Shown here one piece after another: positions 18,780 through 29,459 of a DNA stretch of 35,584 bases. The DNA is taken from contig VAWZ01000102.1 in assembly GCA_005888365.1 (NCBI GenBank), positions 1-35,584 on the forward strand, read 5' to 3'. The notes under the pieces are model-generated. The model had not been told where the DNA came from. It ran no database searches and was given only the letters and a program-made list of their open reading frames with translations. The position numbers were made by a program, and so were the translations under genes. The DNA is from Actinomycetota bacterium. Lineage in GTDB: Bacteria > Actinomycetota > Thermoleophilia > Gaiellales > Gaiellaceae. How positions within the stretch are numbered: position 1 is the stretch's first letter; every line of letters starts with the position of its first letter.

Positions 18780-20275
18780 TCCCCGTGGAGTTGCAGGTGA
18801 TCGCGAGCGGCCTGCGTGCGATCGCAGAGGAGATGGGAGCGGTCCTCGTTCGCTCGGCCTTTTCCGCGAACATCAAGGAGCGGCGCGACTGCTCGACCGC
18901 GCTCTTCGACGAGGTGGGCCGGATGGTCACCCAGGCAGAGCACATCCCGGTCCACCTCGGCGCCATGCCCGAGGCCGTCGCTGCCGTTCGCGCGCACGAC
19001 CCTCCGCTCGGCGAGCCCTGGATCCTGAACGATCCGTTCGCGGGAGGGACTCACCTTCCCGATCTGACGATCGTGACGAGGACGAAGCTCGGGTATGCGG
19101 TCACGCGCGCACACCACGCCGACGTCGGCGGCTCGGAGCCGGGCAGCCTCCCGGCTGGGTCGACGACACTCGAGCAGGAGGGCGTCGTCATTCCGCCGAC
19201 GCGGCTCGACGCCGATGCCCTCGAGCGCCTCGTCGGGCAGATGCGGAATCCGGACGAGCGGCGAGGCGACCTGCGGGCCCAGCTCGCAGCGCATCGCCTC
19301 GCCGAGCGGCGACTGGCGGAGGTGTGCGAGCGCCGCGGGCGACGGCGGGTCGCGGAGGCGATGGACGAGCTCCTCGCGTACTCCGAGCGCGTCGCCAGAA
19401 GCGCGATCCGAGAGCTCCCCGACGGCACGTACGAGGCGACGGACCGCCTCGAGCTCCCCGACGGCTTCCTCCACCTCCACGCGGTGGTGACGATCGCGGG
19501 GGACGCGATCGACATCGACTTCGCGGGCACCTCGCCTCGACACGGGGGAAACCTGAACTGCCCGCTCGCCGTGACCCGGTCCGCCTGCTTCTACGTCGTT
19601 CGCTGCCTCACGGCGCCGGACCTTCCGGCCTCGGGCGGCGCCTTCGTGCCCGTGACGGTTCGCGCCCCGGAAGGGTGTCTCGTCAACGCACAGCGTCCGG
19701 CCGCGGTCGCCGCCGGGAACACCGAGACGTCGAGCAGGATCGTGGACGTCGTTTTCGCCGCCTTCGGACAGGCGATCCCGGTGCCCGCGCAGGGCCAGGG
19801 AACGATGAACAACGTCGTCCTCGGCAACGAGCGCTTCACGTACTACGAGACGACCGGCGGGGGACAGGGGGCGTGCCCGCACGCGGACGGGCCGTCCGCC
19901 GTACACGTCGCGATGTCGAACACGCTGAACACTCCGGTCGAGGCGCTCGAGCTCTCGTATCCCCTGAGGGTCGAGCGCTACGAGCTGCGGCTCGGGTCGG
20001 GGGGCGCGGGCCAGTTCCGAGGCGGGGACGGAGTCGCTCGAGCGGTGCGTGCGCTGGAGCCCTGCCGCCTCTCGCTGCTCACCCAGCGCCGGGCGCTCGC
20101 GCCCCGCGGAGCCCAGGGCGGAGAAGACGGGCTGCCCGGCCGCAACGAGCTCAACGGCGCGGAGCTTCCGAACTTCGTCACGTGCGATCTCGAGGCCGGC
20201 GACGTACTCCGCGTCGAGACTCCGGGAGGAGGCGGCTTCGGCGCAACCGGTCAGGAACGAACCGGCAGCCGGTAG
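18776..20275 (+). CDS. hyuB: Hydantoinase B/oxoprolinase family protein
   Basis: Partner subunit of HyuA, 499 residues, starting at ATG 18776 inside the ATGA overlap. Conserved segments include GLRAIAEEMGAVLVRSAFSANIKERRDCS, LNDPFAGGTHLPDLTIV, RAHHADVGGSEPGS, DFAGTSPRHGGNLNCPLAVT, and the C-terminal LRLGSGGAGQFRGGDGVAR and PGGGGFG. HyuA/HyuB pairs are cytoplasmic ATP-driven amidohydrolases. With no transporter, racemase or carbamoylase nearby, the substrate remains open; a housekeeping 5-oxoproline salvage role is possible. Its last 25 bases overlap the 3' end of the convergent membrane-protein gene. Confidence 0.9.
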   Translation: MIPVELQVIASGLRAIAEEMGAVLVRSAFSANIKERRDCSTALFDEVGRMVTQAEHIPVHLGAMPEAVAAVRAHDPPLGEPWILNDPFAGGTHLPDLTIVTRTKLGYAVTRAHHADVGGSEPGSLPAGSTTLEQEGVVIPPTRLDADALERLVGQMRNPDERRGDLRAQLAAHRLAERRLAEVCERRGRRRVAEAMDELLAYSERVARSAIRELPDGTYEATDRLELPDGFLHLHAVVTIAGDAIDIDFAGTSPRHGGNLNCPLAVTRSACFYVVRCLTAPDLPASGGAFVPVTVRAPEGCLVNAQRPAAVAAGNTETSSRIVDVVFAAFGQAIPVPAQGQGTMNNVVLGNERFTYYETTGGGQGACPHADGPSAVHVAMSNTLNTPVEALELSYPLRVERYELRLGSGGAGQFRGGDGVARAVRALEPCRLSLLTQRRALAPRGAQGGEDGLPGRNELNGAELPNFVTCDLEAGDVLRVETPGGGGFGATGQERTGSR

Positions 20276-22194
20276 AGGACGAAGCGCTCGTCCCGATAGA
20301 GCCGCGGTAGGCTGAACGTGCGCCGGATGCGCAGGCGGTCGACGACGAGATACTCGGCTCCGTACCGCTCCGGGATAGCGAGATCGCCGGAAGCCGCGAA
20401 AGCCCGCGCGTCGCGGGCACGGCCGTACGGGTCGTTCTCCTTCGTGTCGGCGACATGTCCCGGCGGAGCGACGGCGATGTAGACGGGTGCGGCCGCCGCG
20501 AGCCGGTAGCTCGTCTCCTGGTCCGAGTACACGATCGCGCCGGCCGCCACGTCGGTACGCAACGCGTGCACGAGCCCCGGCGAGAGCGTGCTCAGCGGAG
20601 GCGCCGAAACGGGCGTCCAGCGGGCGAGCCCGTAGGCGACGATCGGGAGCAGGAAGAGCGCGGCTGCGAATCCGGCGTCGGCCTCGAGCGGCGACCCGCG
20701 CCGCATTAGTCCGACGACGAGTGCGACCACCCCGGCGGCGCCGGCGATCCAGACGATCAGGCCCGGCGCCCCGTTCTTGAGCGCGTACTGGAAGTCGCCG
20801 GGATACGCCACCTCGAGGACGGCCCCGGCGATGAGAGCGAGGGACGGAAGCACCGGGCCCACGAGCCGCGAAAGGACGCCGAGGCCTCCCGCGAACGCGA
20901 ATGCGAAGGGAAAGAAGCCGGCTGTGCGGCGCGCCTGCGAGAGCGACACCGCGTCCGCGAAGTGCGTGAAGAGCAGCGGAACGAGGCAGACCGCGAGCAC
21001 CGCCAGCGACCCACCAAGCACGAACGCAGCCCAGCGCCGACGCGACGCGAGACATGCGAGCGGGAAGAGAACGATCGCGACGATGGCGATCGGGCCCGTC
21101 CGGGTGAGGACCTCCGGAGCGAGGCTGTAGCTCGACGGCGAGCGGACGTGGAGATAGGTCTTGTAGTGGACGATCGCGCGCTGCAGCTCGGAGGCGTTCG
21201 GAGAGACGGACGCCGTGTGCCCGACGACCGGGACGAGCCAGAGCACGAACAGGACGGTCGGCAACGCCAGCGCACCGAATGCGGCGAGCCCGGCGCGGAG
21301 GTCGGAACGGGACCAGAGCGCTCGTACGGCGAGGAATCCGACGAACGGGATCCAGAGGAAGATCGCGTACGTCGGGTGGATCACCGCAAGCGAGAGCCCA
21401 GCCGCGGCAACGGAGAGGTAACGCGGAACCGACGGCGCCCGTAGGGCCTCGAACGCGAGCGCAAGAGCCGCCGGCACGAGAAGATGCCGCGCTGCCGGCT
21501 CGGGTTGGGCGAGCAGCGCGTAGGCGCCTCCGTGTCCGGGGGCGAAGCAGACGAGGCCCGCCTGGGCGCCCGCGACCGCACCCGCTGCCCACACCCGGCG
21601 AAAGAGCGCCCACCCGGCCTCGTACGCCACGAGCACCGCGAGCGGCGCGAGAAAGCTCGACGCATGCAGGAAGACCTGCGTCGGGTCTTCTCCCGAGAGC
21701 CTGGCGACGACGGCCAGGAAGCCGTGCCAGAGCGGGAACGCGTATCCGGGATGAAGGCCTCCGTCCTTGAACTCGATGACGCGGTGCAGCGTCAGATCGT
21801 CGAAGGCAAGGAGCTTGCGGACGCGGGCGAGGTGGAAGAGCCCGTCGCCCTGAACCGTCCCGGCGACGTGCCAGAGGATCACGCCCACGATCACCCCGGC
21901 TACGCCTGCCCACCAGCGTCCGGGCGCTCCCCGGGCTCTGCCCGCCGGGCCGCGCCTGCGCGCGAGCATCGCCGCCAGGGCGGCGAACCCGGCGACGGCG
22001 AAGAGAGCGATCGCGGTCGTGAGCGAGGAGATCAGCAGAAAAGTGACGACAAGCGCTCCGAAGAGGAGCGTGAGCGACCAGGCCAGCGTCGCGGAGACGC
22101 TCCGTACTCCGAGCGCCCGGGCGAGGCACCAGCCCGGCGCCAGCAGGAGCGCAATCGCGAACGCGAGTCGGAAGTACAGCTCCAGAGCGTTCAT
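20251..22194 (-). CDS. Large polytopic membrane protein, GT-C glycosyltransferase-like
   Basis: A 647-residue protein with about 14 hydrophobic segments over residues 1-540 and a soluble C-terminal tail of about 100 residues. The first extracytoplasmic loop has GDGLFHLARVRKL (116-128). An acidic residue here (Asp117) followed by a helix and a further loop with GLHPGYAFPLWHG is the usual layout of GT-C enzymes using lipid-phosphate sugar donors, as in the GT39/GT83/GT85 relatives. I cannot assign a family with certainty. The ATG start at 22194-22192 directly follows a short hairpin and a repeated element. It would act on the outer face of the membrane in envelope glycan assembly, consistent with the upstream GT2 and flippase-like genes. 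Confidence 0.72.
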   Translation of the reverse strand: MNALELYFRLAFAIALLLAPGWCLARALGVRSVSATLAWSLTLLFGALVVTFLLISSLTTAIALFAVAGFAALAAMLARRRGPAGRARGAPGRWWAGVAGVIVGVILWHVAGTVQGDGLFHLARVRKLLAFDDLTLHRVIEFKDGGLHPGYAFPLWHGFLAVVARLSGEDPTQVFLHASSFLAPLAVLVAYEAGWALFRRVWAAGAVAGAQAGLVCFAPGHGGAYALLAQPEPAARHLLVPAALALAFEALRAPSVPRYLSVAAAGLSLAVIHPTYAIFLWIPFVGFLAVRALWSRSDLRAGLAAFGALALPTVLFVLWLVPVVGHTASVSPNASELQRAIVHYKTYLHVRSPSSYSLAPEVLTRTGPIAIVAIVLFPLACLASRRRWAAFVLGGSLAVLAVCLVPLLFTHFADAVSLSQARRTAGFFPFAFAFAGGLGVLSRLVGPVLPSLALIAGAVLEVAYPGDFQYALKNGAPGLIVWIAGAAGVVALVVGLMRRGSPLEADAGFAAALFLLPIVAYGLARWTPVSAPPLSTLSPGLVHALRTDVAAGAIVYSDQETSYRLAAAAPVYIAVAPPGHVADTKENDPYGRARDARAFAASGDLAIPERYGAEYLVVDRLRIRRTFSLPRLYRDERFVLYRLPVRS

Positions 22195-22289
22195 CGGCGG
22201 GTCTCTCGCCGTTGAACGTGGGGAAGCGTGCAGGAAACCGAGAGGTTCCCGACGTTCTCAAGAAGTAAGGGGAAGCACGGGGGAAACAT
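22191..22289 (-). CDS. Possible 32-codon leader ORF inside repeat copy A
   Basis: An ATG at 22289-22287 opens a small frame beginning MFPPCFPLLLENVGN. It ends at TGA 22193-22191, which overlaps the ATG of the next gene as ATGA, so translation could be coupled to it. AGGGGA lies a few bases upstream as an SD-like sequence. The start codon sits in the loop of a 12-bp hairpin that would hide this SD. The other repeat copy encodes the same 15 residues except Phe/Ile at position 6. Existence as a translated gene is unproven; it may only reflect DNA similarity. Confidence 0.3.
   Translation of the reverse strand: MFPPCFPLLLENVGNLSVSCTLPHVQRRETRR
22195..22211 (-). promoter_or_regulatory. Hairpin directly before start codon (copy A downstream gene)
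   Basis: CGGCG and CGCCG arms (5 bp, 7-base loop) end at the base before the ATG of the large membrane protein. The equivalent position at the other repeat copy (28353-28368) also has a hairpin. The gene has no other clear ribosome-binding site, so the hairpin may influence initiation. Confidence 0.4.
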
Positions 22290-22330
22290 GGTTTCCCCTG
22301 TGAACGCGAGCCGAAGGTGAACGCTTGTCA
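22233..22330 (-). repeat. Structured intergenic repeat, copy A
   Basis: About 83 of 98 bases match copy B (28390-28487) without gaps, including a 24-base identical run at 22275-22298. Read on the minus strand, it starts with the TGA stop of the GT2 gene (22330-22328). A central hairpin has 12-base arms at 22276-22287 and 22291-22302 (one mismatch, loop ATG). A near-palindrome TTCTCAAGAA and a smaller hairpin (GGAAACC/GGTTCCC, one mismatch) follow. It ends 38 bases before the next start codon. No GC-stem plus U-run terminator is present. Transposon ends and direct duplications are not seen. Confidence 0.88.
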
Positions 22331-23230
22331 TTTTCCGAGCAGCGTCGCGACGTCGCCCGAGCCGAGCCAGCGTGCCGCCTCGCGGTATGTCCGGGCGCGT
22401 TCCCCCCTGAAGAGGACGCCGCGCATCCGGACAGCGGCGAGGAGAAGTCGCCTCGCCTTCTCCGCCTGCTCGGGCCCTCGGTGCTTCCAGAAGAAGAGCA
22501 GGTGGCCGCGCAGGTTCTCGCGGTAGAGACGGCCTCCGTGCGAGGCGGCGCCGACGTGTACACACTCGGCGCCGGGAAAGAAGAGAACCCGCCAGCCCGC
22601 CTCGCGAAAGCGAAAGCACCAGTCGGTTTCCTCGCTGAAGAGGAAGAACTCCTCGTCGAGGTATCCGACGTCCTCGACGGCTTGGCGACGGACGAGGAGG
22701 CACGCGCCCATCACGAACTCGGCCGACCGCACCTCGTCGTAGGCGAAACCGTCGCCGTAGAAGCTGTTCAACAGCCGCGAGCGCGGCGCGAGCTTGCGCA
22801 GGAAGAAGTACTCGGTAGCAAGTCGCCAGAGCGTCGGAAAGCCGCGCACCGACCGTTGCAACGACCCGTCCGGGTTCAGCAGGCGAGGCGCGACGACAGC
22901 CGCACGCGGTTCGCCGTCCGCGAACGCGACGAGTCGCGAGAGTGCGTCGCCCGCGAGCCACGCGTCGGCGTTCAAGAGCAATACGTAGCGGCTCTCGGAA
23001 GAGCGGAGACCGACGTTCCAGGCTGCGCCGAGACCGCGGTTTTCCACCGCGATCACGGTCACGTGCGGAAACCGGGAGCGGACGGACGCGACCGTGCCGT
23101 CACGGGAGCCGCAGTCGACGACGATCGTCGGAGCCCGAGCGACGCTTTCGAGACAGCGCTCGATCCAGGGCAACGCGTCGTACGTGACGACGACGACCGT
23201 CGCGTCCGCCGGCTGCCCGCTGCTAGCCAT
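22328..23230 (-). CDS. GT2-family glycosyltransferase (rhamnosyltransferase-like)
   Basis: A 300-residue inverting GT-A enzyme. DATVVVVTYDALPWIERCLESV (9-30) opens the nucleotide-binding domain, and VDCGSRDGT (38-46) and ENRGLGAAWNVGL (63-75) follow. The metal-binding motif reads NAD (87-89 in LLLNADAWL), typical of WcaA/rhamnosyltransferase-type members. EETDWCFRFREAGWRVLFFP is the family's acceptor-side catalytic region. The ATG start (23230-23228) overlaps the upstream flippase-like gene by 8 bases. The TGA stop is the first codon of repeat copy A. It probably adds a deoxyhexose or similar sugar to a cell-envelope glycan; the sugar is unknown. Confidence 0.88.
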   Translation of the reverse strand: MASSGQPADATVVVVTYDALPWIERCLESVARAPTIVVDCGSRDGTVASVRSRFPHVTVIAVENRGLGAAWNVGLRSSESRYVLLLNADAWLAGDALSRLVAFADGEPRAAVVAPRLLNPDGSLQRSVRGFPTLWRLATEYFFLRKLAPRSRLLNSFYGDGFAYDEVRSAEFVMGACLLVRRQAVEDVGYLDEEFFLFSEETDWCFRFREAGWRVLFFPGAECVHVGAASHGGRLYRENLRGHLLFFWKHRGPEQAEKARRLLLAAVRMRGVLFRGERARTYREAARWLGSGDVATLLGK

Positions 23231-27269: not shown

Positions 27270-27285
27270 AGTAAGTTATCACTCA
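27270..27285 (-). promoter_or_regulatory. TetR operator-like site overlapping the TetR promoter
   Basis: The minus strand reads TGAGTGATAACTTACT, from 4 to 19 bases before the TetR ATG. It covers the -10 element and also the TGA stop of the upstream aminotransferase gene (27281-27279). It shares TGAGTGAT and the ACT end with the site before the MFS gene, consistent with autoregulation. Confidence 0.68.
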
Positions 27286-27302
27286 CTCACATACCTCGTC
27301 AA
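27275..27302 (-). promoter_or_regulatory. Sigma-70-type promoter for the TetR gene
   Basis: TTGACG (27302-27297) and GATAAC (27280-27275) are separated by 16 bases. The expected start of transcription is at or within a base or two of the ATG at 27266, so the mRNA would be leaderless. The promoter lies inside the end of the aminotransferase coding sequence. Confidence 0.6.
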
Positions 27303-28352
27303 GCCTTGGCAGACCCGATCGACCTGCTCCTCGGTCGTCGTGGCCGAGAAGGGAAGGGCAAGAGCGCGCTCGAACGCGCGGTCGGCCCCCGGGAACGGCC
27401 CTTGCGAGCTGTAGGCCTCGAGGCGGTGCAGGGCGTACGTACCGATCTGCGCCTCGATTCCCACCTCACGCAGCCCGGCGAGCGCCTCGTCGCGCCGGTC
27501 GAGCTGGACGACGTACGCCTGCCAGCCGTGCCTGTCTCCCTCGACGGCTCGCGGGACGAGGACGAGCTCTTCCAGCCGCTCTGTGTACCAGCCGGCGACC
27601 TGCTCGCGCGCCCGGAGGAGCTCTTCGAGTCGCGCGACCTGCGGGACCCCGAGAGCGCACAGGACGTCCGGCAGGCGGTAGTTGAACCCCGGCCGCGGCA
27701 TGTCGCCGGAGCGTGTCCAGCCATGGTGACGGAGCGTCCGAATCGCCTGGTCGAGGCTCTCCTCGTCGGTCGTGACCGCGCCTCCCTCCCCCGTGGTCAC
27801 GATCTTCCGCGGATGGAAGGACAGGCACCCGGCGACGCCGAGCGCCCCGCACGGCGTTCCTCGATACCGCGCGCCGAGTGCCGCGGCAGCGTCCTCGAGG
27901 AGCACGACCTCCTGCGGCACCGCCGTCTGGAGCTCCACCCACTGGACGGGCCGGCCGAACAGGTGCACCGCGACGACGGCCCGAGTTCGCTCGGTCACGG
28001 CGGCGGCGATCGCACCCGCGTCCGCGAGGAAGGTGTCTGGATCGACGTCGACGAGGACGGCGGTCGCACCGCAGAGCCGCACCGCGTTCGCCGTGGCTGG
28101 GAACGTGTAGGCCGGGACGATCACCTCGTCACCCGGGCCGATCTCGAGTGCGAGGAGCGCAAGATGGAGCGCGGCAGTTCCTGACGACACCGCGGCGGCG
28201 TGGGAGGTTCCGACCGCACTCGCGAGTGAACGCTCGAACTCCTCGACCACGGTCCCCATCGTCAGCTGACCGGTCGCGATCACCTCCGCGACAGCGGCGA
28301 GCTCTGCCTCGCCGACGTCCGGCCGGGCGAGACGAATCGGTGCATCATTCAT
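27279..28352 (-). CDS. DegT/DnrJ/EryC1/StrS-family sugar aminotransferase
   Basis: A PLP enzyme that transfers an amino group to a keto-sugar nucleotide to make an amino sugar for glycan synthesis. The 357-residue protein has SSGTAALHLAL (56-66), VPAYTFPATANAV (79-91), HLFGRP, LEDAAAALGARYRG (152-165) and the PLP lysine Lys183 in SFHPRKIVTTGEGGAV. Family members usually have EDAAQA; here it is EDAAAA, so the stacking Gln is replaced by Ala, a mild oddity. The ATG start follows a 6-bp hairpin and repeat copy B. The gene is downstream of a sugar epimerase/dehydratase, so the two probably act in one nucleotide-sugar route. Confidence 0.9.
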   Translation of the reverse strand: MNDAPIRLARPDVGEAELAAVAEVIATGQLTMGTVVEEFERSLASAVGTSHAAAVSSGTAALHLALLALEIGPGDEVIVPAYTFPATANAVRLCGATAVLVDVDPDTFLADAGAIAAAVTERTRAVVAVHLFGRPVQWVELQTAVPQEVVLLEDAAAALGARYRGTPCGALGVAGCLSFHPRKIVTTGEGGAVTTDEESLDQAIRTLRHHGWTRSGDMPRPGFNYRLPDVLCALGVPQVARLEELLRAREQVAGWYTERLEELVLVPRAVEGDRHGWQAYVVQLDRRDEALAGLREVGIEAQIGTYALHRLEAYSSQGPFPGADRAFERALALPFSATTTEEQVDRVCQGLTRYVSE

Positions 28353-28446
28353 CGGCTCGGAAGAGCCGAGGAATGGGTGGAGGGGTGTGGGGAACCGGGC
28401 GGTTCCCCACGTTCTCGAGAAGAAGGGGGATGCACGGGGGAAACAT
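28345..28446 (-). CDS. Possible 33-codon leader ORF inside repeat copy B
   Basis: An ATG at 28446-28444 starts a small frame beginning MFPPCIPLLLENVGN. It ends with TGA at 28347-28345, overlapping the first 8 bases of the aminotransferase gene. GGGGGA lies just upstream as an SD-like sequence. The start codon lies in the loop of a perfect 12-bp hairpin. Over the 24 codons around this start, differences from copy A fall in six synonymous codons against one conservative change, which is suggestive of coding but rests on two copies. Confidence 0.3.
   Translation of the reverse strand: MFPPCIPLLLENVGNRPVPHTPPPIPRLFRADE
28353..28368 (-). promoter_or_regulatory. Hairpin directly before start codon (copy B downstream gene)
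   Basis: CGGCTC and GAGCCG form a perfect 6-bp stem with a 4-base loop that ends at the base before the aminotransferase ATG. A similar hairpin precedes the gene downstream of repeat copy A. No separate Shine-Dalgarno is evident. Confidence 0.45.
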
Positions 28447-28487
28447 GGTTTCCCCCGTGAACGCTAGCCGGAGGCGAGCGTTCGTCA
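28387..28487 (-). repeat. Structured intergenic repeat, copy B
   Basis: Second copy of the element at 22233-22330. On the minus strand it begins with the TGA stop of the epimerase gene (28487-28485). It folds into hairpins: 7-bp arms 28459-28465/28477-28483 with an inner GCC/GGC; a perfect 12-bp stem 28433-28444/28448-28459 with loop ATG; the palindrome TTCTCGAGAA; and a perfect 10-bp stem 28387-28396/28401-28410. It ends 34 bases before the aminotransferase start. Stems are better preserved here than in copy A. Confidence 0.88.
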
Positions 28488-29459
28488 CGCGGTCGGAGCT
28501 CCGAGCCTCTCTCGGTACCACGCGATCGTCCTGGCCAATCCCTCGTCGAGCTCGACGCTCGCCTCGAACCCAAGCAGGCGCCGGGCCTTGTCCACGTTTG
28601 GCACCCGCAGCTCGACGTCCGTGTAGTGGACCGGCTGGAAGACGAGCTCGCCGCTGCAGCCGGTCAGGCGCTTGACCCGCAACGCGAGGTCGTAGATCGT
28701 GACGGCGGAGCGCGCATTCCCGACGTTGAAGCTCTCGCCGACGGCATTCGGATGCTCGAGCGCGAGGAGGAGCGCATCGACCATGTCCTCGACGTAGCAC
28801 CAGGCCCGGATCTGCGATCCGTCGCCGTGGATGACGAGATCGCGCCCGGCGAGGGCCGCTTCGATGAACGCGCGAATCGCGCCTCCTCCGATCTGACCCG
28901 GCCCGTACACGTTGAACGGGCGCAGCGCGACGGTCGGCAGGCCGAGCTCGTCGTAGTACGCGCGAGCCATGTGCTCCCCGGCAAGCTTCGAGACCGCGTA
29001 CGTCCAGCGCGCCTCGCCGACCGAGCCCTGGGTCGTGACGTGCTCTTCGTCCACCTTGTAGGCGTACGTGCCGAAGACCTCGCTCGTCGAGAACTCGATC
29101 GCCCGCTCGAGCGTGTCCTTCGCGGCGAGCGCCGCCTCGAGCGCGTTATATGTGCCGATCAGGTTCACGCGCATCGTGCGCACGGGGCTCTCGATCACGG
29201 TGTCGACTCCGGCAATGGCTGCGGCGTGGACGAGGTGCGTTGCTCCCTGGACGACGTCTCGGAGCAGTTCGCCGTCGAGGACGTCGCCGTGCACGAAGTC
29301 GAAATTGGGATGGTCGGCGAGCGCGGTTCCGCTCAGTGAGTCCCGGTGCAGGTTGTCGACCGCGACGATCTCGTTCTCCTCGATCAGGCTGCGGGCGAGC
29401 GTCGTCCCGATGAACCCCGCACCGCCGGTGACGACGATCCGCTTGCCGCTCAGAGACAC
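28485..29459 (-). CDS. NAD-dependent sugar epimerase/dehydratase (extended SDR)
   Basis: A nucleotide-sugar-modifying extended SDR of 324 residues. The NAD site is TGGAGFIGTTLARSL (11-25), followed by HAAA (78-81) and the catalytic YAVSK with Tyr154 and Lys158; STSEVFG (124-130) supplies the Ser/Thr region. RPFNVYGPGQ, GDGSQIRAWCYVEDMVDAL and NVGN are substrate-domain signatures of the UDP/dTDP-sugar epimerase and dehydratase group. I cannot tell epimerase from dehydratase. It lies 9 bases after the GT87-like gene. The following gene is a DegT aminotransferase, so a dehydratase-aminotransferase pair for an amino-deoxy sugar is plausible. Confidence 0.88.
   Translation of the reverse strand: MSLSGKRIVVTGGAGFIGTTLARSLIEENEIVAVDNLHRDSLSGTALADHPNFDFVHGDVLDGELLRDVVQGATHLVHAAAIAGVDTVIESPVRTMRVNLIGTYNALEAALAAKDTLERAIEFSTSEVFGTYAYKVDEEHVTTQGSVGEARWTYAVSKLAGEHMARAYYDELGLPTVALRPFNVYGPGQIGGGAIRAFIEAALAGRDLVIHGDGSQIRAWCYVEDMVDALLLALEHPNAVGESFNVGNARSAVTIYDLALRVKRLTGCSGELVFQPVHYTDVELRVPNVDKARRLLGFEASVELDEGLARTIAWYRERLGAPTA

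Follow-up and report, generated by a model that had tools for sequence, protein, structure and literature searches.

The element that occurs twice in the window (the whole stretch of 35,584 nucleotides that was analysed) is, with high probability, a dispersed and structured repeat of the Gaiellales, most likely mobile and non-autonomous, that sits at the NTGA (mostly RTGA) of co-directional genes and carries a small ORF working as a relay between them; NTGA denotes here the four nucleotides that a stop codon and the next start codon have in common when they overlap. The earlier note had described a similar element in two gaps of the window, and the similarity is real and lies where it had been placed: a repeat search of the window yields an ungapped alignment of 123 nt between copy A (22208–22330) and copy B (28365–28487), with 80% identity. 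Chance is excluded as its source, because BLAST of the window's own genome (2.66 Mb in 171 contigs) with copy A as the query recovers copy B at E=1.9e-26 and gives 41 matches in all.

Both copies lie on the minus strand, which is the strand of the flanking genes. In gene direction, and exactly as noted earlier for the two copies, the element opens at the stop codon of the preceding gene. In copy A this is the stop of a glycosyltransferase gene, with an ATGA overlap at 22328–22331, and the 3' end of the copy enters the start codon of the next gene (22192–22194). Copy B has the stop of an epimerase gene (28485–29459) at one end and the start of a DegT aminotransferase gene (28350–28352) at the other. 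The features are listed below; both copies belong to the sequences on which the covariance model was trained, which bears on the bit scores given for them.

22187–22331, minus strand: copy A, whole element, from the glycosyltransferase stop to the start of the DUF6541-like membrane protein (covariance model, 129 bits, E=1.1e-34)
22191–22331, minus strand: bridging small ORF of copy A, 46 codons (MTSVHLRLAFTGETMFPPCFPLLLENVGNLSVSCTLPHVQRRETRR), with ATGA on the upstream stop and TGA on the downstream ATG
22303–22325, minus strand: HP1 position of copy A, imperfect here (columns 7–29 of alignment A1)
22276–22302, minus strand: HP2 of copy A, CACAGGGGAAAC CAT GTTTCCCCCGTG
22230–22253, minus strand: HP3 position of copy A, damaged
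22189–22217, minus strand: HP4 of copy A; the next gene has its start codon (22192–22194) in the 3' arm
22328–23230, minus strand: gene upstream of copy A, a family 2 glycosyltransferase (PF00535), whose stop opens the copy
20251–22194, minus strand: gene downstream of copy A, a predicted membrane protein that starts inside HP4 (weak DUF6541 match, below cut-off)
28345–28488, minus strand: copy B, whole element, between the epimerase and DegT aminotransferase genes (covariance model, 143.7 bits, E=6.9e-39)
28345–28488, minus strand: bridging small ORF of copy B, 47 codons, with a GTG start in GTGA
28460–28482, minus strand: HP1 of copy B
28433–28459, minus strand: HP2 of copy B
28387–28410, minus strand: HP3 of copy B
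28346–28375, minus strand: HP4 of copy B, including the DegT aminotransferase start codon (28350–28352)
28485–29459, minus strand: gene upstream of copy B, an NAD-dependent epimerase/dehydratase (PF01370)
27279–28352, minus strand: gene downstream of copy B, a DegT/DnrJ/EryC1 aminotransferase (PF01041)

Read on the gene strand, the element runs from the left NTGA through HP1 (AACGC TC GCC-TTC-GGC TC GCGTT), HP2 (CACGGGGGAAAC-CAT-GTTTCCCCCGTG), a CCCCCTTCTTC spacer, HP3 (GTGGGGAACC-TCCC-GGTTCCCCAC) and CCCCTCCAC to HP4 (GCTCAT...ATGAGC), the 3' arm of which is the start of the next gene. The hairpins follow one another in the same order in copies A and B, in agreement with the earlier description. 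The small hairpin that had been seen at the next gene is present too, but it is the HP4 of the element, with the start codon inside it, and not a separate structure; the 34–38 bases that had been thought to separate the element from that gene are HP4 itself, and there is no true gap. The copies of the window's own genome measure 118–202 nt, and a longer form, of approximately 200 nt, has an additional hairpin segment between HP2 and HP3. Compared with dinucleotide shuffles, copy B folds far better (z=-10.4), while copy A, a decayed copy with a damaged HP3, reaches z=-3.0.

A covariance model built from 32 copies, in which matches of 39 bits or more are considered strong, gives 48 strong copies in the window's own genome, so the search that the earlier note had proposed takes the family far beyond two members. 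BLAST matched the element in 30 of 61 genomes, its own included, and the covariance search of 296 genomes sampled evenly across the phylum returned strong matches only in its own genome, with weaker ones in two members of the same taxonomic family and in another family (G062). The named genome records that hold the core are mostly MAGs of Actinomycetota, Thermoleophilia, Gaiellaceae. No Rfam covariance model matched the element, and no prior description of this repeat in Gaiellales was found in the literature searched. The four weak matches in G062 (L288, L290, L292 and L293) have a similar hairpin composition, and in three of these loci a GGGGAAACC..GGTTTCCCC hairpin precedes a GCCGCCCATCTTCGC-like stretch; they are possibly a distant analogue of the element. 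Four MAG contigs (L080, L102, L116 and L064) start within the HP2 palindrome or adjoining it, which suggests that assembly breaks at the repeat.

The compensatory changes that the earlier note had advised looking for were found: across the four hairpins of alignment A1, in which paired cells amount to 94.4%, 18 of the 38 pairs have changed on both sides, versus 7.3 ± 1.5 after shuffling. HP4 is the most variable of the hairpins. In the helices of the sense strand there is no excess of G-U over A-C (22 vs. 29), and since the two are about equal the covariation gives no proof that maintenance has been of the sense RNA and not of DNA palindromes. It is a serious possibility, if somewhat short of an even one, that these changes come from quasipalindrome correction (templated mutation) instead of selection for folding, so that only the exit phase of the small ORF (see below) is selected; the wobble-type mismatches have no strand bias, and the arms of HP4 differ widely between copies and match well within a copy, both of which would suit such a process. 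Correction of this kind covers the hairpins alone, is compatible with the main explanation, and leaves the insertion and the phase unexplained.

The placement of the element is tied to gene ends and to strand, as the earlier note had suggested: 45 of the 48 copies in its own genome are flanked by co-directional ORFs and share their strand, and copies are not scattered irrespective of genes. The control of polysaccharide genes proposed in the same note does not hold, since the flanking genes include those for ribosomal proteins, NADH dehydrogenase subunits, NusB, signal peptidase II, a penicillin-binding protein and transporters. The flanking pairs comprise rplF/rplR, nuoD/nuoE, nuoH/nuoI, dksA-like/lspA and a biotin-carboxylase-type gene with nusB, and other flanks are a penicillin-binding protein gene (with the element upstream), FecCD/ABC transporter, aromatic amino acid lyase and FHA/PP2C genes. 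Given functions so varied there is no glycan theme, and a regulator of glycan genes was rejected as a candidate.

The origin of the copies can be read from empty sites, for which the two flanks of a copy were joined and the joined sequence was searched in relatives. For all four copies tested, relatives have uninterrupted junctions with NTGA at the junction. The rplF-rplR junction is empty in eight genomes of the same genus (L196, L197 and L199–L204), e.g., GCGCGCATGAGCACG; nuoH-nuoI is empty in several relatives (L226–L228 and L230), junction A of the window in L328, L329, L332, L333 and L335, and junction B in L316–L322. These uninterrupted NTGA junctions establish that the element has been inserted where two genes were coupled, and that NTGA is present at either end of it afterwards. 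Association between the left and the right R is only partial (p=0.006), and for this reason a strict target duplication is not claimed; no long target duplications above control were found around full bridging-type elements. In one genome (G008, L233) the nuoH-nuoI junction holds a deletion relic, HP1 alone, still with an in-phase ORF that ends in ATGA. Other repeats also occur at these junctions: L323 and L245 (G006) have different palindromic repeats, one of the GGTGTCTGACACC type at junction B of the window and a GGGGCGAGATATATCTCGCCCC hairpin at nuoH-nuoI, both of them junctions that the element occupies in its own genome.

The approximately 48 dispersed copies, the empty orthologous sites at four of four copies tested and the compensatory changes bear out the small mobile palindromic element that the earlier note had suggested. 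Its insertion would presumably be by transposition rather than by some other copying process. No transposase or autonomous partner was found in the searches made, and a HUH/Y1 (REP-type) transposase was rejected as the partner, given that Y1 genes are present in the group and none of the 20 Y1 neighborhoods examined, among them that of the only Y1 match in the window's own genome, has the element.

A feature absent from the earlier note is an in-frame ORF that bridges the element and ends on the next start codon. It is present in 40 of the 48 copies in the window's own genome, with 37–68 codons (39 of the 40 also have a long upstream ORF), and the other eight copies are without a clean bridging ORF. 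In about 38–40 of the 48 copies its stop is a TGA that overlaps the next start, nearly always by 4 nt; the exceptions are copy B, in which the TGA lies 5 nt inside the downstream ORF (ATGAATGA), and copy C100, in which it abuts the start. Both ends could be located in 62 unique copies, of which 57 are in phase and 55 are open throughout, under a scoring that demanded a right-hand start codon located in a hairpin and opening a long ORF, a criterion that was set after the first copies had been seen; an earlier scoring had given 55 of 64 (binomial p of about 4e-18 against one-third). Indels have shifted HP3 among the three possible frames, counted from the left start (the in-phase copies divide into 14, 19 and 21). 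Even so, 54 of the 58 unique copies in which HP3 was located keep the exit phase, with the rest of the element compensating. Permuting the second distances leaves a mean of 19.6 copies in phase and a maximum of 35 in 20,000 permutations, a test that answers only partly the fact that the copies share descent and that the counts are not fully independent. Because each of the three frame classes gives another peptide (GNLPVP, GTSRFP and GEPPGSP), selection apparently acts on the relay and not on the protein; in other words, coupling, and not the peptide, appears to be what selection keeps.

The mechanism proposed is as follows. The element inserts, in gene direction, into the overlapping stop/start tetranucleotide of a co-directional pair; the left NTGA then holds the stop of the upstream gene and the start of the small ORF that spans the whole element, and the right NTGA holds the stop of the small ORF and the start of the downstream gene. 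If the small ORF is translated, as its layout suggests, ribosomes would pass by termination-reinitiation from gene 1 into the small ORF and on to gene 2, and the expression of the neighbors would stay coupled. Passing ribosomes would unfold the hairpins and keep the mRNA covered, and this would make the element tolerable in essential operons at little cost, that is, close to neutral for the host.

It is unlikely that the main role of the small ORF is to maintain translation across the inserted RNA, thereby preventing Rho-dependent polarity downstream, instead of delivering ribosomes to the next start codon. Such a role equally needs an open frame through the element, and the copies do sit in operon-like gene pairs, but it needs no stop placed exactly on the next start, and yet nearly all the bridging ORFs end at +1 of the start.

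The location of HP4 has led to a further reading, in which the element is a cis-regulatory RNA whose HP4 masks the start codon and the Shine-Dalgarno (SD) core until translation of a leader ORF, or a ligand, opens the next gene. The 5' arm of HP4 pairs with the first base of the start codon in 51 of 57 copies (A:T with ATG, G:C with GTG), and an SD-like core lies 6–8 nt upstream of the start in 22 of 32 copies, a raw count that has no baseline of ordinary genes, often in the HP4 loop. A covarying hairpin that contains the start codon, with an SD-like core in its loop, is what a regulator of this kind would have; nevertheless the flanking genes have no common pathway, the same junctions are empty in most relatives, the leader peptide is not conserved in frame, the lack of a G-U excess (22 vs. 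29) gives no sign of RNA-specific selection, and Rfam has no match, all of which make regulation even less probable than protection from Rho. A functional small protein that has spread as a gene is very improbable and was rejected: the first half of the ORF often reads MSNARLRLAFTGETMFPP, but some first halves are frame-shifted, the second half is in three different frames, and the peptide has no match in Pfam or NCBIfam.

The relay proposed here has its closest parallel in the MIRUs, the mycobacterial interspersed repetitive units (Supply et al., 1997, as presented in a 2025 review of translational coupling, PMC12548453). These are short, dispersed and apparently mobile repeats inserted at start codons; each has an internal ORF that a −4 nt spacing couples to the gene, and their effect on expression is likely minimal (PMC12548453). 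Like the MIRUs, the element has tens of dispersed copies at junctions in one orientation (45 of 48 on the gene strand), has an internal ORF with a −4 nt overlap (40 of 48 in its own genome, and 55 of 62 unique copies open and in phase) and sits at the start codons, or NTGA, of coupled genes, as the empty sites at four junctions indicate. Unlike them, it belongs to a host of another bacterial class, its copies are mostly single, it has four strong hairpins, one of them on the start codon, and it includes a reverse-oriented subfamily with a bridging ORF of its own. The element may thus work like a MIRU and is not filed as one, the likeness being drawn from described structural features and not from a comparison of sequences. 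Whether the Gaiellales family is unrelated to the MIRUs and became translationally neutral independently, through NTGA targeting, overlap on both sides and compensating indels, with an opposite-orientation subfamily that bridges on the other strand, is a proposition that stands evenly in the balance.

If the proposed relay is correct, the element shows that a repeat can invade the tightest spot of an operon, the stop/start overlap, even in ribosomal-protein and NADH dehydrogenase operons, by bringing a relay ORF with it. The mycobacterial MIRU would in that case be no curiosity confined to a single genus, and mobile DNA would be shaped by translational coupling. Frame compensation would constitute a natural experiment, in mostly uncultured bacteria, suggesting selection on coupling itself. 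Small ORFs such as these are also prone to be annotated as small proteins.

Other palindromic families share fewer features with the element. REP sequences are also short palindromic repeats outside genes and possible non-autonomous mobile elements; they bear the tetranucleotide GTAG (or CGTC) as a tag at one end, and RAYT genes lie between GTAG REPs or between other inverted repeats (PMC3733652). The ends of the element, by contrast, are RTGA plus HP1 and HP4 (alignment A1), with no GTAG/CGTC tag; it has a bridging ORF, and it is found at 0 of 20 Y1-transposase loci. Rickettsia palindromic elements, of approximately 150 bp, keep the reading frame on insertion (PMC10969869), and in being palindromic and maintaining a frame through the insertion the element resembles them; many of them, however, are in-frame fusions inside coding genes, whereas the element is intergenic and has a separate ORF. 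Long terminal inverted repeats, a feature of MITEs, were not seen in alignment A1.

By itself, the HP2-CCCCCTTCTT core is also present behind genes and tRNAs, and at seven loci (L132, L148, L103, L099, L125, L156 and L162) its orientation is opposite to that of the flanking genes. At six of the seven reverse loci the other strand has an ORF of 59–77 codons that ends on NTGA (CTGA in L099), and the downstream frame that starts at the NTGA has from 32 to 257 codons, the shortest (L148) being doubtful. Several standalone and reverse cores are bordered by direct repeats of host sequence of 15–80 nt, well above a control that paired the flanks of different copies; these repeats are a lead on how the core spreads. 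In L066, L076, L077, L087, L094, L125, L133, L155 and L156 they measure about 28–80 nt, as if the target had been duplicated. In L070 and L076 it is the 3' end of a tRNA that is duplicated. In L068, L055, L114 and L287 the core hairpin, in one orientation or the other, immediately follows a tRNA gene, and in G007 (L286, L289 and L294) there is a tandem array whose units have a related hairpin, GGGGGAACCCATGGTTCCCCC.
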